From Pleurocapsa sp. FMAR1 (lineage in GTDB: Bacteria; Cyanobacteriota; Cyanobacteriia; Cyanobacteriales; Xenococcaceae): a DNA stretch of 64,000 nt. The translations under genes and the position numbers were made by a program. The notes under the pieces were generated by a model, which saw only the letters and a program-made list of their open reading frames with translations, was not told the origin of the DNA and made no database searches. The stretch covers positions 4,712,001 to 4,776,000 of the forward strand of contig NZ_OY762512.1 in assembly GCF_963665995.1 (NCBI RefSeq). The letters are read 5' to 3'. How positions within the stretch are numbered: position 1 is the stretch's first letter; every line of letters starts with the position of its first letter. Below, one piece after another: positions 6,175 to 22,464 of this stretch.

Positions 6175-6963
6175 TTGAATCAAAACCAGGTTGATCGCCA
6201 TTCGCCATCAAAAGAGTTTATTTCTGGGGCAAAAGCTATTATACCTTTGGTTATTGGCGCAATTCCCTTTGGCATTATTTTCGGCACTCTGGCTCAAAGT
6301 AGTGGTTTGTCTTTTGGTGGTGCGATCGCTATGTCCGCCTTGGTTTTTGCTGGTTCGGCTCAGTTTATTGCGTTGGGGTTGTTAGCTACGGGAACACCTT
6401 TGCCGATAATTATCTTGACTACTTTTGTGGTTAATTTGCGCCATTTACTTTATTCTCTTAGCTTAGTGAGGTACGTTCAAGATTTATTGCCGATTTGGAA
6501 AATCATCCTCGGTTTCTGGCTTACTGATGAAGTATTTGCTGTAGTAATTAATCGTTATGCTGAAGGCGATTGCGAAGCTAGAGCGGGTGGAAACGCTTCT
6601 GTTCAAGAAGCTTGTTCCACACCCGCTAGTAGGCATCGCTCTAGGCACAAGCACTGGTATTACTTTGGTGCAGCTATATTTATGTACACCAACTGGCAGA
6701 TTTGCACTCTGCTTGGTTTAACTATCGGTCATCTTATCCCAGATGCTACCAGTTGGGGTTTGGATTTTGCCATGTCGGTTACTTTCATTGGTATGGTTAT
6801 GCCATATATCCGAAATAAACCAATTGCGATCGCCGTTGTTGTCTCAGGAATTACAGCTTTACTGACTCAGAATTTTCCCTATCAGTCAGGTTTAATGGTG
6901 GCAGCTACAGCAGGAATCATGGCTGGTATGGTTGCTAAAAAGATGGGCATTGCATCAGTATAG
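6175..6963 (+). CDS. azlC: AzlC family branched-chain amino acid exporter subunit with an in-frame palindromic insert
   Basis: This integral membrane protein exports branched-chain amino acids (or azaleucine) together with AzlD. Hydrophobic helices run through [20 protein letters not shown] (about 19-38), [13 protein letters not shown] and [14 protein letters not shown], which are family signatures, and a C-terminal set ending [10 protein letters not shown]. It starts at TTG 6175 behind GAGGAG. Residues about 132-156 ([20 protein letters not shown]) are hydrophilic and foreign to the family. They are encoded by a palindromic repeat at 6571-6640 that keeps the frame and falls in the loop just before [16 protein letters not shown]. 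The protein is about 25 residues longer than usual and may still fold. azlD follows 104 bases downstream. Confidence 0.88.
6571..6640. repeat. Palindromic repeat inserted in-frame in azlC
   Basis: The inverted repeat has AGCGGGTG (6582-6589) pairing CACCCGCT (6620-6627), TGGAA (6588-6592) pairing TTCCA (6615-6619), and GCTTCT (6595-6600) pairing AGAAGC (6606-6611) around a GTTCA loop. Its core, GTGGAAAYGCTYC with the matching GAAGCTTRTTCCAC arm, recurs in the intergenic hairpin at 5739-5780. Here it is translated as a loop of AzlC. Confidence 0.75.
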
Positions 6964-7067: not shown

Positions 7068-7400
7068 ATGTCTAAACAAGAATTTTATTTAATTGGGGCG
7101 ATGGCGGTGGTTACGTTCCTGATTCGCTATCCTTTCTTAGCTTTTAGCAATCGAATCAAACTTCCCGCTCAACTAATTGACGCACTGGAGTTTCTTCCTC
7201 CTGCTATTCTTACGGCAATTATAGTTCCTGCGGTATTAATGCCAACGGGAGATAAAATTTTATTGAGTTATACTAACGCTAAACTAGTCGGCGCGATCGC
7301 AGCTATCCTCATTAGCTGGCGTACTAAAAATCTTCTCGCTACTATTATTGGCGGAATGCTAACGTTTTTAATTTGGCAATGGTTATTGAGTGTTGCCTGA
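7068..7400 (+). CDS. azlD: AzlD family branched-chain amino acid exporter subunit
   Basis: This small partner of AzlC (110 residues) has four hydrophobic segments (about 7-27, 44-62, 67-86 and 89-108). The N-terminal MAVVTFLIRYPFL and the motif LEFLPPAILTAIIVP match the AzlD family, which forms the two-component exporter with AzlC in the cytoplasmic membrane. It lies 104 bases after azlC on the same strand, the usual arrangement, and the gap holds only a short GGGAGACT repeat. Length is normal for the family. Confidence 0.9.
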   Translation: MSKQEFYLIGAMAVVTFLIRYPFLAFSNRIKLPAQLIDALEFLPPAILTAIIVPAVLMPTGDKILLSYTNAKLVGAIAAILISWRTKNLLATIIGGMLTFLIWQWLLSVA

Positions 7401-7418: not shown

Positions 7419-8819
7419 TTATGGTTCTGTAACACTGTCTCTAGCGGCGACAAAAGCCCGAACAGAACGGGTAATATCCTCCTCCGTCGTCGCCCACGAG
7501 CAAACGCTAACCCGAATGGCAGCTTTGTCGTCCCATTTTGTCCCACCTACCCAACATTCGCCAGATTTTTGAATATGGTGCATAGTCAGATTGGTCACTT
7601 CGTTGGTATCGCAAGCAACCAGCACCTGATTAAAAACAACATCATTTAAAATATGAAAGCCTTCTGCACTGAGTTCGCGACTCATTTGAACAGCTTTTTG
7701 ATGAAGACCAAACACTAATTGATCGACACCCGTTTTACCCAGGTATTTCAAGCTCGCCCAAAGTTCTATGACCCGCGCGCGCCTAGACATCTCAAGCGTG
7801 TAGAGCATCCCGTCGCGATTTTCATTATAGGCAAGGTATGAGCCAGAAGCCTGTAGGGCATGACTCAAAGCATCTTGATCGCTGCACATTACAATACCGC
7901 TATCATAAGGCGTATTAAGGGTTTTATGACCGTCAACAGACCAAGAATTTGCCTTTTCTATTCCTTTTGTCAGGTGGCGGAGTTTCTTTGAGCTAGCTGC
8001 CCAAAGACCAAAAGCTCCATCAATATGAACCCAAGCATTTGCATTAATAGCGCGATCGCAAATTTCATCTATAGGGTCGAACGCGCCAGAATTTACGTGT
8101 CCTGTTTGTAGAGTAACAATAGTGCTTTTGTCTAGTTTAGGAACCTGAGATAGAACAATTTTACCTTGGCTATCAGTGTCTACCCATTCCACGTTGTCTG
8201 TGCCAAAGCCTAACAGTGCAACCGCTTTAGCGACCGTTGCATGAGCTTGGCGACCAGCGACTATTCTAATTTTGGGCGCATTATTTAGTCCTTGCTTGTT
8301 AATGTCCCAGTGGTTGTTTTGCAAGACTCGATATCGAGCCGCCGCTAAACCACAGAAGGTTGCTAAGGAAGATCCACTAACAAAACCAGCTACGGTCTGA
8401 TTGGGCAAGCCCAGTAATTCTCTCAACCACGACTCAACAACTTCCTCAAGCTTTGAAGCAATGGGGGACATGACATAGAGTGCTGAATTTTGATCCCAAA
8501 AATCAGCCAGCCAGCGAACAGCCAGAGCCACTGGTAAAACCCCTCCGCAGACAAATCCAAAGTAACGTCCACCTATTTGTGAGGTCGTCGCAGGCGATCC
8601 ATATTTGTGTAGCTGCTTTAAAATCTCAACGGTTTCTCCGACACTATTAGGTAAGTCTTCAGTGAAGTTCTCTAAGTTTGCGATCGACTCATCTGTGGGA
8701 AAAACCGTTCGCTCACAGGCGTTGTCTGCGTATTCAAAAGCATAGTTTTGGGCTTGGTTAAATATCTCTTTGCGTTCCATCTCTTGGAACATTTTTTTTT
8801 GAAAGGTATCAGTCATCAT
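7419..8819 (-). CDS. PLP-dependent group II (aromatic-L-amino-acid type) decarboxylase
   Basis: The 466-residue enzyme belongs to the pyridoxal-phosphate decarboxylase family. Visible elements are FVSGSSLATFCGLAAAR (about 146-162, phosphate binding), AHAT with the ring-stacking His near 193, WVHIDGAFG with the Asp near 267, and SVDGHKTLNTPYDSG with the Schiff-base Lys near 299. It should remove the carboxyl group of an amino acid to give an amine; the substrate cannot be read from sequence. It starts at tandem ATGs at 8814-8819. It is divergent from the FadR-type regulator with only about 95 bases between coding starts, which suggests local control by that protein. Confidence 0.87.
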   Translation of the reverse strand: MMTDTFQKKMFQEMERKEIFNQAQNYAFEYADNACERTVFPTDESIANLENFTEDLPNSVGETVEILKQLHKYGSPATTSQIGGRYFGFVCGGVLPVALAVRWLADFWDQNSALYVMSPIASKLEEVVESWLRELLGLPNQTVAGFVSGSSLATFCGLAAARYRVLQNNHWDINKQGLNNAPKIRIVAGRQAHATVAKAVALLGFGTDNVEWVDTDSQGKIVLSQVPKLDKSTIVTLQTGHVNSGAFDPIDEICDRAINANAWVHIDGAFGLWAASSKKLRHLTKGIEKANSWSVDGHKTLNTPYDSGIVMCSDQDALSHALQASGSYLAYNENRDGMLYTLEMSRRARVIELWASLKYLGKTGVDQLVFGLHQKAVQMSRELSAEGFHILNDVVFNQVLVACDTNEVTNLTMHHIQKSGECWVGGTKWDDKAAIRVSVCSWATTEEDITRSVRAFVAARDSVTEP

Positions 8820-8838
8820 ACTTTATCTTTATTTAAAA

Positions 8839-8850
8839 CTATTCAATCAG
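8839..8850 (-). promoter_or_regulatory. 12-bp element shared by the decarboxylase and ligase upstream regions
   Basis: CTATTCAATCAG (plus strand) lies about 20 bases upstream of the decarboxylase ATG. The identical 12-mer lies at 12134-12145, 8 bases upstream of the glutamine-synthetase-like gene. Both sit beside a TTTATTTAAAA stretch. It could be a common promoter element or a regulator contact; this is inference from the repeat alone. Confidence 0.35.
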
Positions 8851-8877
8851 GCTCATTTTATAAAGCAAACGCCATAT

Positions 8878-8891
8878 ACTAACAAGTGTTA
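8878..8891. promoter_or_regulatory. Small palindrome at the start of the FadR-type regulator gene
   Basis: CTAACA-AG-TGTTAG is a perfect 6-bp inverted repeat with a 2-base centre. It lies between the divergent decarboxylase and regulator genes and overlaps the GTG at 8886. This favours the ATG at 8916 as the regulator's true start and makes an autoregulatory operator possible. Its sequence differs from the palindrome at 12155-12186. Confidence 0.35.
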
Positions 8892-8915
8892 GGTTCAAAA
8901 CCGAAGTTTAGCTAT

Positions 8916-9677
8916 ATGGTAAACAATCTCGAGAACATTATCCTTTCGGCTAGCCAGCCTCTAAACTCTGCTGAAGCTCTTCTCAGAGGTTTAAAGCCGA
9001 CCAGCAATATGTTTGAAGTCACAGTAGAGCGTTTAGGATCTACCATTAAGTTAGGACTTTATGAACCAGGCGATCGCTTACCCACTGAGCGTAGAATTGC
9101 CGAAATCATGAGGGTCAGCCGTGCGACTATTCGCGAGGCCATTCGGTTGCTGACAGAACAGGGCGTTCTGGTCGTCAAAAGAGGACGTTCGGGCGGTACA
9201 TTTGTCTCAAAAGACTTAGCTTCTTCTAAAGTTCTGAGCATGAGACGTCGGATACAGGATACAGGCTTTTCTCTTTCTGAAGTTCTAGATCATCGCTTAG
9301 TTATTGAACTCGGAACTATTGAGTTAGCGGCTCAGAGGGCTAAACCTGCTCATATTGGCGAGATGCAAGGCTTGATCGATAAAATGAAGCAGGCGAGTAA
9401 TGACTACAGTGCATATCGTCAGTTAGATGCTCAGTTCCATCTGGCGATCGCCAGAGCGACACAAACGAATAGACTCCCTATTGTAATGGCCGATATCCAG
9501 GCTGAATCATCAGATTTGCTATCTAGCGTTCCTCCCAGTAACAAGGCTCTTTTTAATTCAACTGACCAGCATCAAGATATGCTCAATTCAATCAAGGATG
9601 GCGATTCAGAGCTAGCTAGAGCCATCATGACAGAACACATCTTAGCCACAAAAAGCTACCTAATTGGGCTGCTTTAG
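8916..9677 (+). CDS. FadR/GntR family transcriptional regulator
   Basis: The N-terminal winged helix contains GDRLPTERRIAEIMRVSRAT, then IREAIRLLTEQGVLVVKRGRSGGTFV, the GntR signature with the recognition helix and wing. The C-terminal part (about 120-250) is an all-helical FCD ligand-binding domain. It has EVLDHRLVIELGTIELAA and LDAQFHLAIARATQ, where Asp/His residues of the family bind a metal or organic acid. I chose ATG 8916 (253 residues) over GTG 8886, which lies inside a palindrome. It is divergent from the decarboxylase, and its 3' end faces the nitrilase gene 9 bases away. It most likely controls this amine island in response to a pathway metabolite. Confidence 0.87.
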   Translation: MVNNLENIILSASQPLNSAEALLRGLKPTSNMFEVTVERLGSTIKLGLYEPGDRLPTERRIAEIMRVSRATIREAIRLLTEQGVLVVKRGRSGGTFVSKDLASSKVLSMRRRIQDTGFSLSEVLDHRLVIELGTIELAAQRAKPAHIGEMQGLIDKMKQASNDYSAYRQLDAQFHLAIARATQTNRLPIVMADIQAESSDLLSSVPPSNKALFNSTDQHQDMLNSIKDGDSELARAIMTEHILATKSYLIGLL

Positions 9678-9686
9678 CTTATCAAA

Positions 9687-10625
9687 TCAGTCTTTAAACG
9701 ATAGTGCTTCAAGACGCTGGCGATTTACCGTAAGCTCGAATACATCGGGTCTATTGTAATGCCCAGTTGGGTCGAAGTTGGTTCGTTCTTGTCTAACTAT
9801 GTTGAGATCGATATCTGCGGTCAGTAGTTGTTCTTTGTGAAGCACGGGCGCGATAACATATTCTCCTGTCGGTGATATAACTGACGATCCACCATTGAAT
9901 ATAGTCGTGACTCCACGCTCGTGCAGAACATCTAACACAGGAAAGTCGGCGGGAATATCTTCAATTGAAAGAAGCCCATGAACGGCTATAGACCAGACCC
10001 GACCTTCCAGCGCAATCATCCGAGCGATGTCTGCCGAAATAGATGCATTTCCTGGCCATACGCTGACATGAACGTCTTCACCACCGCCATACATGGCAAA
10101 GCGCGCCAGCGGCATCCAGTTTTCCCAGCAGTTCAGTCCTCCAACTTTAGCACCGCAGATGTTATGCACTTTAAGTCCATTGCCATCACCTATCCCCCAC
10201 ACCAACCGCTCGTCCCATGTTGGCATGAGCTTGCGATGTGTACTGACGATACCTTTTTGAGGATCGATTGCAACTAGCGTACAGTACACGGTGCCTCTCG
10301 TCGCGCCTGCGCCTCTTTCTGTTATGCCTAAATAAACAAAAAGACCAAAATCTCTAGCTGCTTCTTCAATCAGTTGAAGCTCTGACCCTTTCGCCTCGAT
10401 CGCCGCGTCCAGGTAATAGGCGTAGGCTTGCTTTTGCGAGATTTCGTTGAATTGAACCGCGTCTGTGCGTCAGATCCAAAAGGGATAGCCCGATAGAAAA
10501 GTTTCTGGAAACGCAACTAAATCAACGCTTTGCCCAGAGGCTTCCTTCATCAGTTGCAAAACCTTTTGGGTGGTTTTGACTTTGTTTAGCCAGATCGGTC
10601 TAGCCTGTGCGATCGCAATCTTCAT
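9687..10625 (-). pseudogene. Nitrilase interrupted by one in-frame UGA
   Basis: Read from ATG 10623-10625 the frame gives MKIAIAQARPIWLNKVKTT and FPETFLSGYPFWI, then TGA at 10470-10472, then RTDAVQFNEISQKQAYAYY and on without a break to the stop at 9687. The full length would be about 312 residues, normal for a nitrilase. All three catalytic residues are present: Glu in FPETF, Lys in HRKLMPTW and Cys in GGLNCWENW. Only one base separates this from an intact gene, so the lesion is recent or an assembly error. A GTG at 10287-10289 could start a 200-residue fragment without the Glu. It lies 43 bases behind the ligase gene in an apparent operon. The usual reaction is hydrolysis of a nitrile to an acid. 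Confidence 0.8.
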
Positions 10626-10668
10626 GAAACCACCATTGAACAACCAGGATAATTTTACTTGTCAACCA

Positions 10669-12126
10669 TCAATACATTTCAAAATACTCTTTTTGTTCCC
10701 AATCTGTAACAGTCGATAGAAAACGCCCCAGCTCATGCTCCTTAAGCTTTATGAAGTAATCCACAAAGATATCTCCAAGCTCTTCACGGAATAGATCGTC
10801 TGCTTTAAAAGCTGCGATCGCTGCCATCAGATTAGAAGGCAGCTTCTCTTTATCCGAGGTATAAGCGGCTTGAACAGGCGAAGCAGGATCGAGCTGATTG
10901 CGGATACCCTCTCGACCACTGATTATTTGAGAAACTAAGTATAAATATGGGTTGGCGGTGGGTTCTCTCACTCTATTTTCAATCCGAGAACTCGGCTCTT
11001 TTGGAGCTGCAATCACCCGTAGCATAGAGCCTCTATTTTCAATTCCCCAGCAGATGTTGTTGGGTGCAAAAGAGTCTGGACGATATCGCTTGTAGCCGTT
11101 GACTGTTGGCGTAGTCAGCAGCGAAGCTCCAGCAGCGTGCTTAAGCAATCCACCCATGTAGTTCATTCCAACGGGAGATAAAATACTAGAATCGTCTTCA
11201 GCAGTAAAGACATTCGTTTGACTGCTGGTTGACGTGACCGATTGATGCAGGTGCCATCCACTCGGAAAGAGATTGGGAATCCCTGGAATAGCCATAAAGG
11301 TTGCATGATAGCCATGCCGACGACAGATTTGCTTGACGGCACTGCGAAATAACAGCACCGTATCTGCGGCTTCGAGCGCTGACATCGGGTCAAACGTAAA
11401 TTCGCACTGACCAGGCCCCCACTCATCTTCAACTGTTGCCAACGGTAAACCCAGCTCGAGAATGCTATCTTCTAAAAGGCGTAAAACATCGTCAACTTCG
11501 TCGCTGTGGTTGTCAGTTAGGTATTGGTAACCGTGGCTAAGAATCTTTACTTTGGGGGGTTCGGGTGGGTAGCCACAGTGTTCTGGCTCTAGCATAGGAT
11601 CTTCAAGGCGAGTCACGTAAAACTCCATTTCCAGCCCTGCTACCAGTTCGTATCCATCCTGACGAAACGCTTCTACTTTGTCTTTTAAGAGCCTGCGGGT
11701 AGAGAAGGGTACGGGTTGCCCATTACTCAAATAGGCATCACTCAAAATCCAGCCCGTATCTTTAGCCCAAGGAAGAATTCGGAAAGTATTGGGGTCGGGA
11801 ATGAGTATACCGTCTGGTAATCCTGTCATCTCAGGCACACCCAGGCTATCGACTGCAAAGGGAGAAACAATTGGATGATTAGTTGTATCAAATAGGGCAG
11901 TAACCATTTGAAAGTCTTTACCCTCTTTAAGCGTGCGGACAAACTCTGGAACAAAGATTGTCTTACTTCGCACAATACCGTGCTGATCTCCCCATCCCAC
12001 GCGGATTCGGCGGATTCCTTTTTCTTCTATCATCGCCAGCACTTCCTGCGCTTTATCGATTTGTTGAGGTGTCCAAAGATTGTGACGTTTAATGAATGGA
12101 GACTTGATCGGATAAGTAGTAGCCAT
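10669..12126 (-). CDS. Glutamine-synthetase-like ligase (gamma-glutamyl-amine synthetase type)
   Basis: This is a GS-fold enzyme of 485 residues. It has an N-terminal beta-grasp (RVGWGDQHGIVRSKTIFVPE) and a catalytic domain with LEMEFYV and EDEWGPGQCEFTF (metal Glu residues), PSGWHLHQSV, NGYKRYRPDSFAPNNICWG and ENRVREPTANPYLYL. Divergent GS proteins of this sort often glutamylate amines, as PuuA does with putrescine, rather than make glutamine. The setting among a decarboxylase, nitrilase and amine oxidase supports such a role by inference. I place the start at ATG 12124-12126; a TTG 15 bases upstream is less likely. Upstream lie the shared 12-mer (12134-12145) and a 32-bp palindrome (12155-12186). 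Confidence 0.82.
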   Translation of the reverse strand: MATTYPIKSPFIKRHNLWTPQQIDKAQEVLAMIEEKGIRRIRVGWGDQHGIVRSKTIFVPEFVRTLKEGKDFQMVTALFDTTNHPIVSPFAVDSLGVPEMTGLPDGILIPDPNTFRILPWAKDTGWILSDAYLSNGQPVPFSTRRLLKDKVEAFRQDGYELVAGLEMEFYVTRLEDPMLEPEHCGYPPEPPKVKILSHGYQYLTDNHSDEVDDVLRLLEDSILELGLPLATVEDEWGPGQCEFTFDPMSALEAADTVLLFRSAVKQICRRHGYHATFMAIPGIPNLFPSGWHLHQSVTSTSSQTNVFTAEDDSSILSPVGMNYMGGLLKHAAGASLLTTPTVNGYKRYRPDSFAPNNICWGIENRGSMLRVIAAPKEPSSRIENRVREPTANPYLYLVSQIISGREGIRNQLDPASPVQAAYTSDKEKLPSNLMAAIAAFKADDLFREELGDIFVDYFIKLKEHELGRFLSTVTDWEQKEYFEMY

Positions 12127-12133
12127 ATAGTGC

Positions 12134-12145
12134 CTATTCAATCAG
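12134..12145 (-). promoter_or_regulatory. Second copy of the shared 12-bp element
   Basis: CTATTCAATCAG, identical to 8839-8850, lies 8 bases upstream of the ATG of the GS-like gene. Two exact copies in front of two genes of one island are unlikely to be chance, though the role is not known. Confidence 0.35.
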
Positions 12146-12154
12146 TATGCGTTT

Positions 12155-12186
12155 ATTTAAAAGGTATGATTTCATACCTTTTAAAT
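12155..12186. promoter_or_regulatory. 32-bp perfect palindrome, candidate operator of the amine island
   Basis: The arms are ATTTAAAAGGTATGA and its exact complement around a 2-base TT centre (15+2+15). It ends 29 bases upstream of the GS-like gene's ATG, in promoter position. GntR-family proteins bind such symmetric sites as dimers, and a FadR-type regulator is encoded 3 kb away, so an operator role is a reasonable inference. A transcribed leader hairpin is an alternative; the arms are AT-rich and there is no T tract, so a terminator is less likely. Confidence 0.55.
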
Positions 12187-12254
12187 TATATTATCTATAA
12201 ATTCAGTTCTGTAGCTAGCAACACAAATAGTTTTCAGAACAAGAGACTTTTGGG

Positions 12255-12283
12255 CGCTAGCTCTATTAAAAGTAGAGCTAGCG
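12255..12283. repeat. Perfect 11-bp inverted repeat between ridA and the GS-like gene
   Basis: CGCTAGCTCTA at 12255-12265 pairs with TAGAGCTAGCG at 12273-12283 around a 7-base loop. It lies about 75 bases downstream of the ridA stop on the minus strand. It could end that transcript, but no U run follows on either strand. Confidence 0.4.
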
Positions 12284-12357
12284 AGGATATTGTTGGCAAA
12301 CGTTTTTTGTATGGCAGTGATTGTTGACCGTGCTTTAGAACGTTTTTAATCCCAACA

Positions 12358-12870
12358 TCAAGACTTTACAGCCACTACTTCGATTTCTACCAACCAGCCT
12401 GGGTTGACTAAACCAGCAACCTGCATTGCCGATCTCGCTGGTAAATTTGGCTGTGTTTTTGTCCCAAAAAATTGCGTATAACCTTCCATAAATCCACCAA
12501 AATCCATTTGTCCCTCATTATCAGGATCGCCAACAATAAACGCCTGCATTTTTACCACATCACCCATAGTTAAATTGAGAGATTCGAGAATGCTTTGAAT
12601 TTCTTTTAAAACATTAACGGTTTGAGTTTTCGTATTTCCGTAAGCTGCAATTGAGTCTGGTTTGGCACTCTCATCAACTACGGACGGAACTTGACCGCTT
12701 ACATATATTAAAGTGGTTTCAGGTGGTACTTCCACTGATTGAGCGATGGGGAAATCTGAATCAGGAATGGGATTTCTGATTACTTGGGCGGAAGTAACCT
12801 TAAGACTGCCAATAAACAATCCTATTACTAGAATGAAAATTAAAGCTGCTTTTTGCCAAAATCGAAACAT
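12358..12870 (-). CDS. Exported RidA family enamine/imine deaminase
   Basis: This RidA-fold protein has an N-terminal signal sequence (KAALIFILVIGLFIGSL, about 7-24, with a likely cut after TSA). RidA proteins hydrolyse reactive enamine/imine products to keto acids and ammonia. The conserved Arg is in NLPARSAMQVAGL and the C-terminal EIEVVAV carries the conserved Glu. It starts 18 bases after the stop of the flavin amine oxidase on the same strand, so the two look cotranscribed. An exported RidA beside a Tat-exported amine oxidase fits detoxification of the oxidase's imine product outside the cytoplasm. Most RidA proteins are cytoplasmic, so the signal is notable. Confidence 0.85.
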   Translation of the reverse strand: MFRFWQKAALIFILVIGLFIGSLKVTSAQVIRNPIPDSDFPIAQSVEVPPETTLIYVSGQVPSVVDESAKPDSIAAYGNTKTQTVNVLKEIQSILESLNLTMGDVVKMQAFIVGDPDNEGQMDFGGFMEGYTQFFGTKTQPNLPARSAMQVAGLVNPGWLVEIEVVAVKS

Positions 12871-12888
12871 TTATTTTTTCCTTAGATG

Positions 12889-14472
12889 TTACGCTTGAGT
12901 CGCTTTTACTTTTTCGGTAATCTTGGCGATCGCTTGATATGCCGAAAACACTGCACCTTCTTGCCAACCCGTTAAATAGCTCAAATGTTCTCCAGCTAGG
13001 TAAATCGATCCTGACACCTCATTAAGTGTACGATAAGCGCGATCGCGATCTTCTTCTGACCATTCTGCCCAACCACCTAGACTGTAGGGCATTTTTTCCC
13101 AAGCGATAGTTACACCCATTGCAGGCTCGATAAACTCTCTGTAATTGGGGTGAATTTTTGAGCCATTAGCGATCTCTTTAGCAATGCGCTGGGCTGGCAT
13201 CATTTTCCCCCAAGGATTACCAATCGGATTATCCCAGATATATGCACCGACTATAACACCTGTTTCCTGATGAAATCCGCTTGAAGGATACCAAATTTGA
13301 GTGATATCTTGATCTGTCCAGGAAATTCCGCCATAAATGTGGTCTTGTTGTTCCCAAAAGCGTTGGTTAGCTTGAAAACCGACTTTAACTGCATTGGTGT
13401 AATTCGTTCCTTTGGCGATCGCCTGCTTTATTTGTGGTGACAAGTTGGTATCGATCTTGTTTAAGACAGGTAAGGGAAAGGTGCAGATGGCATAATCTGC
13501 GGTCAACTCCTGTTGTCCATCCTGGTCTTGATAGACAATGCTGACTCCATTTCCAGTTTGGCGCATCTGCTTAACTACGGCGTTGTATTGAATGCGATCG
13601 CCCACTTTATTTTCAAACGCTTTAGCAATTCGATCCATACCGCCGACAGGTTAGAGCATTGTCGCTGCTTGATTGTAGCCTTCGGCGAAATTTAATTTGT
13701 ATTCCCAAAAATCTGACTTGAGTAGCTCAGAAAAATCTAGTGGTTTGTAAAGCTTTCCTGAGGTTAACCCAGCCCCTGGTGGTGAAATGTATCCAGCAGA
13801 ATCCGTTCCTTTGTAGCGATAGTCTTCACCGAGACTACCATAGCTACTGACAAACTCTAACAATCGTTCTCGATCTTCAGCCTGTATCTCTGTATCTAGA
13901 GCTTTTTGGTTAATTGCCTTTGCCAACAACTCCGCCATATATCCTCGACTGTCATTGACGACACGCCGATTGAGAATAGCTTGACCGCCAAAAGCCCGAT
14001 CGTCCTGAAAATAAGCTGCTCTGTTTTCATTGATCCGTACCTGTAAGGGTACGCCAAATTCCCGACAATAACCTAAAATTTCTCGATGGTGGTAAGGAAT
14101 TCGGGCAGGGCCAGGATTAAAATACAAATGTTCTTCAGAATCGAAAGGACAGGTTTGTTTGCTTTCTAGTTCTGCAATTTCTGTCCCAGCACGGATCGTC
14201 CAGCATCTACCACCAGCGCGATCGCGTGCTTCGAGAATTGTACAATTATATCCAGCTTTTCCTAACTCATAAGCAGCAGTCATTCCCGCAATTCCTGCCC
14301 CTAAAATTGCCACTTTGACCCCTTCTCCTGCTTCAGCAGTTAATTTGGGCTTAGTGATTGCTTGTGCTGGCGAATGGAGCAAATTCAAAGCTTTCATGGT
14401 GCTGTATACTGCTGCTACACCTCCTGCTCTTCCAACCAATTTCAACAGTTTGCGTCGTGTAAATTGACTCAC
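12889..14472 (-). pseudogene. Tat-exported flavin amine/L-amino-acid oxidase interrupted by one in-frame UAA
   Basis: It begins with a twin-arginine signal (FTRRKLLKLVGRAGG) and a Rossmann FAD motif (VAILGAGIAGMTAAYELG), then EARDRAGGRCWTIR, typical of the monoamine/L-amino-acid oxidase superfamily. After YNQAATML a TAA stands at 13651-13653. The same frame continues PVGGMDRIAKAFENKV to the end at 12889, including GSIYLAGEHLSYLTGWQEGA, the C-terminal FAD contact. The whole frame is 527 codons plus stop, a normal length. One C-to-T change (CAA to TAA) explains the stop. It oxidises an amine or amino acid to imine plus peroxide, matching ridA behind it. As sequenced, only separate fragments of 273 and up to 249 residues can form. 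Confidence 0.82.
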
Positions 14473-14874: not shown

Positions 14875-15105
14875 CTAGTTTGTCTTGAATGATATTGACA
14901 TTTGACGATAATAACCAGGCGTAATCCCGAACATTCTCTTAAAATGGCTCTGATCTGACATCCCTACCGCGATCGCTGTATCGGCAATCGACATTCCTTG
15001 ACTCAGAAATTGCTTGGCTTTTCGCATCCGAATTTGGTTTAAATAAGTGTAAGGTGGCATCCCTACTGCTTGACGAAAGACGCGAATCAAATAACAACGA
15101 TAGTG
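14875..15105 (-). pseudogene. AraC-family regulator, C-terminal DNA-binding fragment
   Basis: The visible 71 residues are the double helix-turn-helix of AraC proteins: RVFRQAVGMPPYTYLNQIRM, then KQFLSQGMSIADTAIAVGMS and FKRMFGITPGYYRQ. The frame continues a few codons upstream (YLIRVF) and then meets IS5 transposase sequence on the other strand at about 15105, so the ligand-binding half is gone. The truncated protein might still bind DNA, but it lacks a sensible start and sensor. Confidence 0.7.
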
Positions 15106-15401
15106 TTAAATTGAAAACACTCAAAAGAGGTAGACCCAAAAAAAGAGTTAAAGTTTTAGCAGCAGACAAAGGCTATGATTCAAAAGGACAGCGGGCTGCT
15201 CTTTTGAAAAATCGAGGCAGACCAATCAAAGTATCTGTTCCCAGATTTCAACAAGAGAGATGTTTTGCTTGGTATCAACGCAAATATCGCCGTCTCGTTA
15301 TTCGATGGGAACGCCAAAAAACTAATTTTGATGCTTTTTTGTCTTTGGCTACCGTTCACATCTGGATTAATAAAATGTGGCGTTGCACAGTTGTGGGATG
15401 A
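15105..15401 (+). pseudogene. IS5-family transposase internal/C-terminal fragment
   Basis: About 98 residues, including RGRPKKRVKVLAADKGYDSK with the DDE-type DKGYDS motif, then RGRPIKVSVPRF, RRLVIRWERQ and FLSLATVHIWI with the YRR...R...E-like spacing. This is typical of the second half of IS5/IS1031-type transposases. The first half is missing, and the reading frame starts inside AraC sequence. No intact terminal repeats are seen, so the element is defective. Confidence 0.7.
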
Positions 15402-18248: not shown

Positions 18249-18554
18249 CGGGCAATGATCTGGATAAATAACTGACAATAACGGCTCATTGTAATTATGG
18301 AGTAAGTAGTAATTAACTTGCTCTTTTTTATTGACAGAAATATTGTTTGCTATCAAAAATATCATTATCAATACTAATACCTATTCTCAAAAGTAACTAA
18401 AAACTCGTAATCCTATATTTATCCATACCCTACATCCTGACACAATCCAAGTCTCTCGCTATATTCGAGAATTGGTATTATTAATATTGCAACTTGCATA
18501 GTATTTTGTGCTACATTATATTTCCTAATTAATATGACAGGAGATATAAAATTC

Positions 18555-19850
18555 ATGACCGTTATGGCAATGGAAGTTATTAGCGCGGAGAAACATCCCA
18601 ACGCTGATGCTTTACGCCTATACACAATAAAAGCAGCAGAAAAAGAAGTAGAAATTATCGCTAACCTAGATTGTATCTATGAATTAGGAGATATTGTGGC
18701 GATCGCCTTAGTTGGTTCAACTTTAAAAGATAGTACAAAAATAAAGCCAACTAAGCTACGGGGAGTATATTCCTACGGCATGGCATTGGGCAAGGTTGAG
18801 GCAAAAATAGGACAGGATTTAGCCGATATTTATTGTCAGCCAGAAACTCCATCTACGACAAAGCAGTTACCCTTTATTAAGTGGACGAGTATCGAGCTGC
18901 TGCATAACGTTAAACGTGAGTTAGATGCAAGAAATCAAGCATTCCAACTTACTTATCGTGCAAAGGTCAAACTTCATGGTACCAATGCAGGGGTACAGAT
19001 TACTCCTACGGGCGAAGTTGCTGCCCAAAAAAAGACTCAAATCATTACCTACGAAGCTGATAATGCTGATTTTGCTGCCTGGGTAGAACAAAATACTAAA
19101 TATTTTAGTCAGTTAAAAGGAAATTCTAACATCACCATTTTTGGTGAGTGGTGCGGAAGCGGTATTCAAAGAGGAGTAGCAATCTCTCAAATAGAACGTA
19201 AAGTGTTTGCTGTCTTTGCCATCCAATATGGTGGTGTAGGAGAGGAAATTGCTGAATTAGAGATACGTCCCGAAGTAATCAGAGCAATATTGGCACCCAA
19301 CGAAGATATCTTTGTGTTGCCTTATTATGGGCAACCAGTCAATCTTAATTTCGGCGATGCTAAACAACTACAGGCTGCTGCGGATACTATCAATCAAATG
19401 GTAGAAGCAGTAGAAAAAATAGATCCTTGGGTCAAAGATAACTTTGGTATTGAAGGAGTGGGAGAAGGATTAGTTATGTATCCCCAAGTTGAAGATATCG
19501 TGGCAAGGGATAGATATACACAATTAATTTTTAAAGCCAAAGGTGAAAAACACCAGGTAGTTAAAACTAAAAAAGCAGTCCAAATAGAGCCTGAAATAGC
19601 TCAGAATATTGCAGAATTTGTGGATTTATTTGTGACTGAAGCTAGATTACAACAGGCATTGACCGAAGCCTGTAGTGGTGAGCTAGACATGAAGCAAATG
19701 GGTCAATTCCTTCAGTGGATTTCGGTTGATATCCATAAAGAAAGCGAGGCAGAATTGGCAGTAGCAGACCTAACTTGGAAACAGGTTAATAAGTTTGTCA
19801 ATAGTGCTGCTAGAAAATGGTACACCAACAAAGTGACCAACGTTTTTTAG
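18555..19850 (+). CDS. RNA ligase with N-terminal OB-fold domain (DraRnl/Rnl5-like)
   Basis: This is an ATP-dependent nucleotidyltransferase that should seal RNA breaks. Residues about 5-95 resemble a tRNA_bind/OB fold (EKHPNADALRLY, LGDIVAIALVGS, KLRGVYSYGMALG). The ligase core has motif I KLHGTN with the adenylated Lys at about residue 139, motif III FGEWCGSG (about 196-203), motif IV EGLVMYP (about 304-310) and motif V FKAKGEKH (about 326-333). An N-terminal OB module before an Rnl2-like core is the layout of Deinococcus DraRnl. I chose ATG 18555, which has AGGAGA 10 bases upstream; ATG 18534 lies before that site. A T-run hairpin follows at 19867-19900, then two RlaP-type nucleotidyltransferases. 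Confidence 0.85.
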   Translation: MTVMAMEVISAEKHPNADALRLYTIKAAEKEVEIIANLDCIYELGDIVAIALVGSTLKDSTKIKPTKLRGVYSYGMALGKVEAKIGQDLADIYCQPETPSTTKQLPFIKWTSIELLHNVKRELDARNQAFQLTYRAKVKLHGTNAGVQITPTGEVAAQKKTQIITYEADNADFAAWVEQNTKYFSQLKGNSNITIFGEWCGSGIQRGVAISQIERKVFAVFAIQYGGVGEEIAELEIRPEVIRAILAPNEDIFVLPYYGQPVNLNFGDAKQLQAAADTINQMVEAVEKIDPWVKDNFGIEGVGEGLVMYPQVEDIVARDRYTQLIFKAKGEKHQVVKTKKAVQIEPEIAQNIAEFVDLFVTEARLQQALTEACSGELDMKQMGQFLQWISVDIHKESEAELAVADLTWKQVNKFVNSAARKWYTNKVTNVF

Positions 19851-19866
19851 TTAAAACTTTGAATTA

Positions 19867-19900
19867 GTCTCCTGTTTAGCGACGTGGAGGCTATTTTTTT
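19867..19900 (+). terminator. Rho-independent terminator after the RNA ligase gene
   Basis: GTCTCC at 19867-19872 pairs with GGAGGC at 19886-19891 (one G-U pair) and is followed by a run of seven T at 19894-19900. It would end the RNA ligase transcript before the first nucleotidyltransferase, so that gene probably had its own promoter in the 58 bases between here and its ATG. Confidence 0.6.
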
Positions 19901-20027
19901 GATTGCGAAAAAAGCAATACAATTTATTTAAAATACAAGTCGAGAATCTGACAACTCCATGAACCCTAATTGGTAGTCCTAAAGATGTAAGGATATAAAA
20001 TAGGAAATTGTAGATCATTTGATTTCC

Positions 20028-20339
20028 ATGCCAGTAGATTTGCCATCTTGTCCATCATGTAATTCAGAACAAATTGTTAAAAACGGTCACATTCACAATG
20101 GCAAGCAAAATTATAAATGTCGCGACTGTGGTAGACAATATGTGGAAAATCCACAGAATAAAATGATCGACCAACCAACCAAAAACTTGATTGACAAATT
20201 ACTCTTAGAGAAGATTCCTTTAGCTGGAATTGCCCGAGTTACAGAAGTTTCAGAACCTTGGTTACAGAGTTATGTCAATGCTAAATACGAATCAGTTTCT
20301 CAGCAAGTTAAAGTGAGAACAAAAGAAAAGGAAAATTAA
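20028..20339 (+). CDS. insA: IS1-family InsA-like protein
   Basis: About 103 residues from ATG 20028. An N-terminal zinc ribbon (CPSC...CRDC, with the spacing of IS1 InsA) is followed by a helix-turn-helix (IPLAGIARVTEVSEPWLQSY). Alone it would bind the ends and act as a repressor. By a -1 ribosomal slip in the A-rich stretch at about 20316-20336 it would be extended into the downstream frame to give the full transposase. Confidence 0.88.
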   Translation: MPVDLPSCPSCNSEQIVKNGHIHNGKQNYKCRDCGRQYVENPQNKMIDQPTKNLIDKLLLEKIPLAGIARVTEVSEPWLQSYVNAKYESVSQQVKVRTKEKEN

Positions 20340-20356
20340 CGATTCAGTGTGATGAA

Positions 20357-20746
20357 ATGTGGTCATTTGTCGGTAATAAAGCCAATAAACAATGGATTTG
20401 GTTGGCTTTGGCTGCAAAAACTAAAGAAATAGTCGGGGTTCATATCGGCGATCGCCGTCGTCATGGAGCGAGAAAGCTATGGCAATCTTTGCCCTCAGTC
20501 TATCGACAGTGTGCCGTTTGTTATAGTGACTTCTGGGAAGCCTATGAACAGGTAATTCCTTCAAAACGCCATCAAGCGGTGGGAAAAGAGAGAAAAACCA
20601 ATTACATAGAACGATTTAATTGCACAATGCGACAAAGAGTTTCTCGATTAGTCAGGAAGACTCTATCGTTCTCTAAGAAAATCGAAAATCAGATCGGGGC
20701 AATCTGGTATTTTGTCCATCATTACAACACGTCCTTACATCTTTAG
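20357..20746 (+). CDS. insB: IS1-family InsB-like DDE catalytic frame (expressed by -1 frameshift)
   Basis: The frame opens upstream of its first ATG as LTIQCDEMWSFVG, in the -1 phase relative to the InsA frame, so the active protein is probably an InsAB' fusion from 20028 to 20746. The catalytic triad is visible: Asp in QCDEMW, Asp in CYSDFWEAY and Glu in NYIERFN. The stop lies inside the right terminal repeat. The length and motifs are those of a functional IS1 transposase. Confidence 0.88.
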   Translation: MWSFVGNKANKQWIWLALAAKTKEIVGVHIGDRRRHGARKLWQSLPSVYRQCAVCYSDFWEAYEQVIPSKRHQAVGKERKTNYIERFNCTMRQRVSRLVRKTLSFSKKIENQIGAIWYFVHHYNTSLHL

Positions 20747-21699
20747 GACTACCCCCTAATTTAATTATCCCAATTGGCACGCAGGTTGTTAGTCGAATTG
20801 AAGTTAAAAATAAACAGAACGAATCTGTCTGTCTTCAAGGAGAAGTCGGAGTAATTATTTATTCTCCTACAGATAATTCTCATGCTTACAAGATTCGTTT
20901 GACCAACGATTCAGAAATAATTTTGAATCGTCATGAGTTTAGTATTCGCAAGCACTATCAAAAACAAGAACTACAAGATGCTCGCGATATGTTGGACGAG
21001 TACAATCTTTATGATTATGTTATCTATCGTTGTGTAGTTGGTTCGAGAGCTTATGGTCTTGACAATAAAAATTCTGATACGGATTTGAGAGGAATCTATT
21101 TACCTCCTGCAAATTTGCATTGGTCTTTATATGGTATTCCCGAACAATTGGAAAATCATGATAGCCAGGAGTGTTATTGGGAATTGCAAAAGTTCATTCT
21201 TTTGGCATTAAAAGCTAATCCAAATATTTTGGAATGTTTGTATACTCCAATGATTAAAGATATAAATCCTGTTGCTGAAAACTTATTAGCTAAAAAAGAG
21301 ATATTTTTATCACAATTAGTTTATCAGACCTACAATGGCTATGTTATGTCTCAGTTTAAAAAAATGGAGCAAGACTTACGCAATAAAGGAGAAATTAAAT
21401 TAAAACACGCAATGCACTTAATTCGATTGCTATTATCTGGTATCACAATTTTGCAGTCAGGATTTGTCCCAGTAAAAGTTTCCCAGTACAGAGAAGAATT
21501 GCTGGCAATTCGTAATGGAGATATGCCTTGGCTGGAGGTGAATAAATGGCGATTAGATTTGCATCAGAAATTTAATCGTAGTTTCAACCAGACTTTTTTA
21601 CCTAAACGTCCAGATTATGAACAGGCAAATACTTTATTAATAGAAGCCCGAAAAGGAATGGTTGAGTAATAACTATGCTTAAATTTTAAAGTCTTTATA

Positions 21700-22464
21700 A
21701 TGGAAGTTAATCAAGAACTATTAGTAACAATAGCTCATTCACAACCTTATCCACTTCTATTTACAACTATTAGTGGCGCACATTTGTATGGATTTCCTTC
21801 GCCAGATTCCGATTATGATCTGCGCGGTATTCATATTTTGCCGACCAAAGAGGTAATTGGCTTGTATTCTGCGGCAGAAACTATTGAAGTTTCCGAGGTT
21901 AAATCAGGTCTACAAATTGATTTAGTAACTCATGATCTTAAAAAGTTTTTTATTTTATTACTCAAAAGAAATGGTTATGTTTTAGAGCAGTTATATTCCC
22001 CTTTAATAGTTCAGACTACTCCAGAACATAAGCAATTAAAAGCGATCGCGTCTAACTGTATTACTCGCAATCATTATTATCATTATTTAGGATTTGCAAA
22101 GAGTCAATGGCGATTATTTACGAAAGGAAATATTTATCAAATAAAGCCACTACTCTATATTTATCGAGTTTTGCTTACAGGAATTTATTTGATGAATACT
22201 GGAAGAGTTGAAGCTAATTTGCTCAATTTGAATCAAGAGTTTAGCTTACCTTATATTGGCGATCTAGTCGCCCAAAAATGTACAGAATCGGAAAAATCAA
22301 TCTTAAAAGAAACTGATATAGAACACCATTTCCAAGAATATCAAAGATTGCAGCGTGAATTAGAAGCAGCTTTTGGCAATAGTCATTTACCAGATGACTC
22401 GTCTGCAAAACTAGAGTTAAATAGTTTATTAATAGATACAAGACAAAAGCTAACTAATTCTTAA
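21700..22464 (+). CDS. Second RlaP/COG3541-type nucleotidyltransferase
   Basis: This 254-residue protein has the polymerase-beta motif SGAHLYGFPSPDSDYDLRG at residues 25-43, with metal-binding Asp38 and Asp40. A helical second half follows (RNHYYHYLGFAKSQW and LYIYRVLLTGIYLMNTGRVE), the conserved layout of the predicted nucleotidyltransferase family. It is a paralogue of the gene just upstream (30-base gap) but lacks that protein's N-terminal beta domain, so the pair may act on different RNA ends or form a heteromer. It is intact, unlike the upstream copy. Together with the RNA ligase it suggests an RNA-repair system; the substrate is unknown. Confidence 0.85.
   Translation: MEVNQELLVTIAHSQPYPLLFTTISGAHLYGFPSPDSDYDLRGIHILPTKEVIGLYSAAETIEVSEVKSGLQIDLVTHDLKKFFILLLKRNGYVLEQLYSPLIVQTTPEHKQLKAIASNCITRNHYYHYLGFAKSQWRLFTKGNIYQIKPLLYIYRVLLTGIYLMNTGRVEANLLNLNQEFSLPYIGDLVAQKCTESEKSILKETDIEHHFQEYQRLQRELEAAFGNSHLPDDSSAKLELNSLLIDTRQKLTNS

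Follow-up and report, generated by a model that had tools for sequence, protein, structure and literature searches.

The DNA considered here is a window of 64 000 nucleotides from the one-contig genome (5.43 Mb) of the cyanobacterium Pleurocapsa sp. FMAR1. Between positions 7419 and 14472, it contains six genes for, respectively, a decarboxylase, a FadR-type regulator, a nitrilase, a glutamine synthetase (GS)-like ligase, a Rid-family protein (RidA) and an amino acid oxidase. In an initial annotation made from the DNA alone, these genes were joined into an island with a single dedicated route for the degradation of an amine. The comparison with other genomes favors, on balance, a different view, namely that acquired pieces make up a patchwork in this stretch rather than one six-gene route: a gamma-glutamylation and nitrilase module under FadR control lies beside an independent exported oxidase pair, and both are partly decayed. 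All the kinds of genes involved are known; it is their combination that is unusual. The six gene families and the divergent or paired transcription described in the initial annotation are upheld by Pfam searches and by the strands of the open reading frames (ORFs), respectively, and all six genes are present, although the frames of the nitrilase and the oxidase are broken, which had been overlooked.

In the first piece, the GS-like ligase, judging from its family and key residues, would join glutamate to an organic amine using ATP, the nitrilase would have a nitrile or a related C-N group as its substrate, and the regulator would bind a 32-bp palindrome, keeping the operon off until an effector appears. 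In the second piece, the relatives of the exported oxidase convert L-amino acids to 2-imino acids outside the cytoplasm, where these are cleared by RidA, and the pair in the window would do the same.

The GS-like ligase

The GS-like gene (10669-12141, minus strand; Gln-synt_C, PF00120, 3.4e-81) is intact, with an ATG at 12123 that is a likelier start than the TTG. The closest solved structure is 8wwu (7e-136), with the next one far behind (4e-54). This structure is that of NpaA1, an enzyme that glutamylates 1-naphthylamine and for whose class the name glutamyl-organic-amine synthetase (GoaS) has been proposed; GoaS enzymes are reported to have lost the flap glutamate of GS, and AtdA1 to have a tyrosine at the position of V201 of NpaA1 (PMC11335346). 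Assuming an offset of 15 residues between the numbering of the chain and that of the paper, F75, F86, W235, E232 and E234 of NpaA1 correspond to F84, F95, W241, E238 and E240 of the window ligase, whereas M81 is replaced by P90 and V201 by Y207. F358 of the window protein aligns with a glutamate of the archaeal GS 8ool that we take to be the flap residue.

With NpaA1 nearer than the ammonia-using GS, the flap glutamate apparently lost and the aromatic tunnel residues kept, the protein is classified here as a predicted GoaS. Because the flap glutamate is replaced, and the tryptophan and both pocket glutamates are kept as in NpaA1, an organic amine is the likely class of substrate; an ordinary GS is rejected on account of the flap residue and the closest structure.

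The closest known counterparts of the ligase are the GoaS enzymes NpaA1, AtdA1 and TdnQ-DcaQ. The GS-like gene of the Delftia plasmid pNB8c is 47% identical to that of the window, and those of four aniline-type plasmids (loci L061 and L108-L110; 44-48% identity) are accompanied by ring-hydroxylating dioxygenases, alongside an amidotransferase in L061 and L108. In contrast, neither a ring-hydroxylating dioxygenase nor an amidotransferase is found among the window genes between 6175 and 15401, which rules out a complete aniline-type cluster. The putrescine (Puu) route shares the logic of gamma-glutamylation, and the ligase matches the PuuA model NF045547 with 229.6 bits, but this is far from the 650-bit cut-off and PuuB, PuuC and PuuD are absent among the same genes, so that the Puu route is ruled out as well.

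The amidotransferase-like gene of this genome that is nearest to the module is about 15 kb off and is 28% identical to that of the Streptomyces tendae plasmid discussed below. This gene, of the class I type, lies just before the window, next to ammonium-transporter-like and DUF1989-like genes, the latter two recognized by inspection (L131, G000:C1:4706686-4711023); the distance of these nitrogen genes from the GS-like gene is some 11-16 kb.

A probable GS-like, nitrilase and FadR module

The GS-like gene is followed in tandem by the nitrilase gene (9687-10625, minus strand; CN_hydrolase, PF00795, detected on the remaining ORF 9687-10289), and the gene for the FadR/FCD-type GntR regulator (8886-9677, plus strand; PF00392 and PF07729) converges on the latter. 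The synteny sample for the GS-like gene includes 12 loci, of which 11 are distinct (L058-L061, L108-L110 and L113-L117, with L059 and L114, the same replicon, counted once). In one of these, the S. tendae plasmid NZ_CP043960 (L058), GS-like, nitrilase, amidotransferase and FadR-type genes stand in a row, with the GS-like gene preceding the nitrilase in the same order and on the same strand as in the window. The proteins of this row are 55-56% (GS-like) and 46% (nitrilase) identical to those of the window, and the same plasmid tops the list in separate plasmid searches with the GS-like protein (54 records) and with the nitrilase (705 records). The two arrangements differ in that the window lacks the amidotransferase and its regulator, only distantly similar, is encoded on the opposite strand. 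The synteny search suggested in the initial annotation does recover the GS-like gene, the nitrilase and a FadR-type regulator together, but with no decarboxylase match in the 17 kb of plasmid compared.

The nitrilase belongs to the same superfamily as Nit6803 and NIT4, with the E-K-C residues and a match to the plant NIT4 structure 6i00 (1.3e-46); it differs from Nit6803 in that the TIGR04048 score (188.8 bits) is below the cut-off of 502.6 bits and in that the frame is interrupted.

The closest cyanobacterial relative of the regulator (58% identity, genome G037) is encoded next to an aldehyde dehydrogenase and another GS-like gene (28% identity), a hint that this type of regulator goes with GS-like amine genes. 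The G037 gene itself (L124, 7382-9565) is split, with the match to the final 57 residues lying 1.3 kb further along, and the intervening ORFs look transposon-like.

A perfect palindrome (15+2+15) at 12155-12186, located 14 bases upstream of the TTG and 32 bases upstream of the ATG of the GS-like gene, is an unproven candidate operator for the regulator. In the 64 kb, just one other perfect inverted repeat has arms of 10 bases or more and a spacer of 8 or less; in 10 first-order Markov sequences, repeats with arms of 13 or more and a spacer of 4 or less did not occur. A perfect hairpin with 11-bp arms at 12255-12283, between the RidA and GS-like genes, may be where the oxidase-RidA transcript ends, separating two transcripts. 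Promoter-like sites are no more common than in shuffled sequences (11 compared with a mean of 13.9).

The putatively exported oxidase-RidA pair

The oxidase gene (12889-14472, minus strand) matches the Amino_oxidase family of Pfam in both of its ORFs, 12889-13638 and 13651-14472, and is followed in tandem by the gene for the Rid-family imine hydrolase (12358-12870, minus strand; Ribonuc_L-PSP, PF01042, 1.7e-19). The closest solved structure to the oxidase is 2jae (1e-99), an L-amino acid oxidase, presumably from Rhodococcus opacus. Both proteins look exported by inspection of their N-termini: the oxidase has an RR motif of the twin-arginine translocation (Tat) type, TRRKLLKLVG, and RidA starts with a hydrophobic, export-like segment.

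The pair recurs elsewhere. RidA is encoded beside the oxidase in 5 of the 7 loci compared (three genomes labeled G007, G031 and G333, Metabacillus and Sulfitobacter, but not G168 or Deinococcus). In G007, from another genus of the same family (L103), both genes are intact, with 57% identity for the oxidase (61-65% for its halves) and 64% for RidA, and none of the other island genes is found in the 8 kb compared. In Gluconacetobacter diazotrophicus PAL5, a lao-cccA-ridA cluster encodes a Tat-exported L-amino acid oxidase, a cytochrome c and RidA, and transposon insertions in lao are reported to abolish the formation of indole-3-acetic acid (PMC5053998). The window shares with this cluster the Tat-type L-amino acid oxidase adjoining RidA, but lacks a cytochrome c gene between the two or next to them, and its oxidase frame is interrupted. 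By these comparisons, the oxidase and RidA genes make up a module of their own that is already known (lao-ridA) and that, in G007, stands apart from the rest of the island. On a Metabacillus plasmid (L082), the oxidase and a Rid-family gene are followed by tatA and tatC genes of their own.

The decarboxylase

The group II pyridoxal phosphate-dependent decarboxylase gene (7419-8819, minus strand; PF00282, 1.9e-38) is divergent to the regulator gene. It retains the expected motifs, with VHIDGAFG at 264 and the lysine of DGHKTL at 296, and belongs to the PF00282 superfamily, but scores far below the equivalog cut-offs for PanP and for diaminobutyrate, tyrosine and histidine decarboxylases (the best score is 103.1 of 606.1 bits). 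A search of genome contigs identified relatives at 23 loci (42-67% identity), 9 of which have full 10-kb flanks, the others being cut by contig ends. AzlC, AzlD, the regulator, the nitrilase, the GS-like ligase, RidA and the oxidase have no match (E≤1e-5) at any of these 23 loci. The neighbors are unrelated to the island: 20 neighboring proteins tested against Pfam belong to mixed families, and the only ones that recur are a GATase (two Methylobacter loci) and ScpA (two loci from Saprospiraceae). Elsewhere in the same genomes, a GS-like match at E≤1e-60 occurs in 2 of the 23, one of 43% identity, which is also a strong GoaS match, and a weaker one of 34%. The decarboxylase, which keeps mixed company elsewhere, is a third element and probably a fellow traveler of the GoaS-nitrilase-FadR module. 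In both Methylobacter loci (L016 and L017), the GATase-family gene lies directly upstream of the decarboxylase relative.

Rarity and composition

The initial annotation regarded the gene set as unfamiliar in cyanobacteria, and three of the genes are indeed rare there. In a set of 386 cyanobacterial genomes, 3 others match the GS-like gene at E≤1e-90 (46-47% identity), 1 other matches the regulator gene at E≤1e-15 (the G037 gene) and 3 others match the oxidase gene at E≤1e-120 (44-51%), with one further oxidase match (57%) in a member of the family outside the list. The nitrilase family as such is not rare, with matches at E≤1e-40 in 26 other genomes; the identity does not exceed 40% among the matches listed. 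In the family to which the host belongs, the decarboxylase has matches in 3 of the 26 other genomes, all partial and 29-31% identical, and the GS-like matches, at no more than 34%, are by inspection other GS paralogues. The 12 other genomes of the same genus contain no close copies of the island genes. No empty site is definable, as the thiC flanks at 7 loci from this genus are devoid of island genes and match other ORFs of the window just twice, both times weakly.

The G+C content of the decarboxylase (45.3%), regulator (45.2%), nitrilase (48.5%) and GS-like (46.7%) genes is well above the mean of the 35 other window ORFs (40.1%) and exceeds that of 34, 34, 35 and 35 of these ORFs, respectively. 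The oxidase gene (45%) exceeds 33 of the 35, and the RidA gene only 13. We read the high G+C content, combined with the rarity of the genes and the lack of close copies in relatives, as a sign that the island genes were acquired, with RidA an exception in composition.

Weighing the patchwork and its alternatives

Several observations weigh against a patchwork built around a GS-nitrilase-FadR module. The GS-like and nitrilase genes are adjacent in only 1 of the 11 distinct loci, and the kinship of the regulator with the S. tendae row is weak because the FadR-type protein encoded there is just 31% identical to it over 163 amino acids; a plasmid search with the regulator puts a different S. tendae gene first (35%), with a Nonomuraea gene at a higher bit score. 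The like G+C content of the decarboxylase, regulator, nitrilase and GS-like genes fits a joint arrival that includes the decarboxylase. A search of the genome at one mismatch found no other instance of the palindrome, compared with two for a backward control pattern, and there is no copy before the decarboxylase gene, in S. tendae or near the G037 regulator; moreover, the palindrome scores as terminator-like on the plus strand, so that it may be a terminator there. Finally, both of the stop codons described below are known from a single assembly.

The joint arrival can be turned into an alternative, possible if rather unlikely, in which the decarboxylase, regulator, GS-like ligase and nitrilase form one acquired block with a common line of substrates, the oxidase-RidA pair being the only outsider. 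The four genes are indeed contiguous and share a G+C content of 45-49% compared with the mean of 40% for the 35 other ORFs. However, the oxidase gene is likewise at 45%, S. tendae has the GS, nitrilase and FadR genes without a decarboxylase match in 17 kb of its plasmid, and the neighbors of the decarboxylase elsewhere are of mixed families.

The case for decay comes from the nitrilase and oxidase genes, each of which contains one stop codon and is a pseudogene or nearly so. The oxidase gene is a single frame with an in-frame TAA at codon 274, in a column that has a sense codon in 7 of 7 relatives. With its start at 10625 rather than at the GTG at 10289, the nitrilase gene is broken in frame by a TGA at codon 52, a place where none of the 8 relatives has a stop (there is a residue in 5 and a gap in 3). 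The gene still encodes the PET (residue 40), HRK (130) and NCWEN (165) segments, which we take to hold the catalytic Glu, Lys and Cys, respectively, but because of the TGA, the remaining 200-amino acid ORF lacks the Glu segment. Thus, the only genes of the island that read through in this genome are those for the decarboxylase, the regulator, the GS-like ligase and RidA. In another cyanobacterium (G246, L063), a nitrilase relative of 37% identity likewise has one TAA reported within the region of the match.

It is improbable that both stops stem from errors in sequencing or assembly, with the six genes all being functional. Such errors would be compatible with single-codon lesions in frames that are otherwise open and keep their motifs, but the stops affect 2 of 2 of these genes compared with none of the 15 other matches listed from the same genome, which makes a generally poor assembly unlikely; a neighboring regulator remnant and a transposase-like fragment further suggest local decay.

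If the assembly is right, a six-gene route could not run here, since its oxidase and nitrilase steps are interrupted. A single route in which the decarboxylase makes an amine, the ligase glutamylates it, the oxidase and RidA finish the degradation and the regulator controls all the steps is very doubtful: it can draw on the compact layout with a divergent regulator, on the high G+C content of four genes and on the G037 regulator that adjoins an aldehyde dehydrogenase and a GS-like gene, but the decarboxylase and the oxidase-RidA pair stand elsewhere without the other genes, the oxidase resembles L-amino acid oxidases rather than gamma-glutamylamine oxidases, and its steps would fall into different compartments because the oxidase and RidA look exported whereas the ligase, by inspection, does not. 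A single six-gene operon is ruled out by the strands and by the synteny of the decarboxylase. What survives of the dedicated route of the initial annotation is the GS-like/nitrilase/FadR grouping, the high G+C content of four genes and the gamma-glutamylation, as the ligase appears by structure match and residues to group with enzymes that gamma-glutamylate organic amines; the unity of the six genes does not.

A more specific version of the first piece of the patchwork is conceivable but has little probability: the GS-like, nitrilase, amidotransferase and FadR genes could represent an undescribed amino-nitrile route that proceeds via gamma-glutamyl protection, complete in S. tendae and a decaying remnant in the window. 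Once glutamate has been put on the amine, the nitrilase would convert the nitrile thus protected to an acid, and the product would then be released by the amidotransferase. With the decarboxylase included, the conjectured series would run from beta-cyanoalanine via beta-aminopropionitrile and gamma-glutamyl-beta-aminopropionitrile to gamma-glutamyl-beta-alanine; these substrate names are a conjecture from enzyme families and gene order. A search of the open-licence literature for a GS-nitrilase combination or an aminonitrile route found nothing on the topic.

If the patchwork is real, the GS-like/nitrilase/FadR set would be a minor variation on gamma-glutamylation routes already described for anilines and polyamines, and within the phylum, this type of ligase was found in just 3 other genomes of the 386. 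The stretch also calls for caution in the inference of pathways from gene neighbors, with 2 of its 6 genes interrupted and three kinds of genes with separate histories. The GS-like enzyme of the window is intact, and the S. tendae set provides an uninterrupted version of the module that can be tested.

Neighboring genes

On the other side of the decarboxylase gene, tail to tail with it, lie the plus-strand genes for an AzlC-like amino acid exporter subunit (6175-6963; PF03591, 2.8e-43, with TIGR00346 below the cut-off) and its AzlD-like partner (7068-7400; PF05437, 2.7e-24), whose link to the other genes is putative. Upstream of the oxidase, an AraC-type C-terminal remnant (14890-15110, minus strand) is joined to a transposase-like fragment (15054-15401, plus strand), both recognized by inspection; the 115-amino acid plus-strand ORF of the fragment has no Pfam match. 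Further along the window (18534-22464, plus strand), a gene for an RNA ligase with a tRNA-binding-like domain is followed by two genes of the RlaP family (RNA repair, polymerase-beta type), which together make up an RNA repair set.

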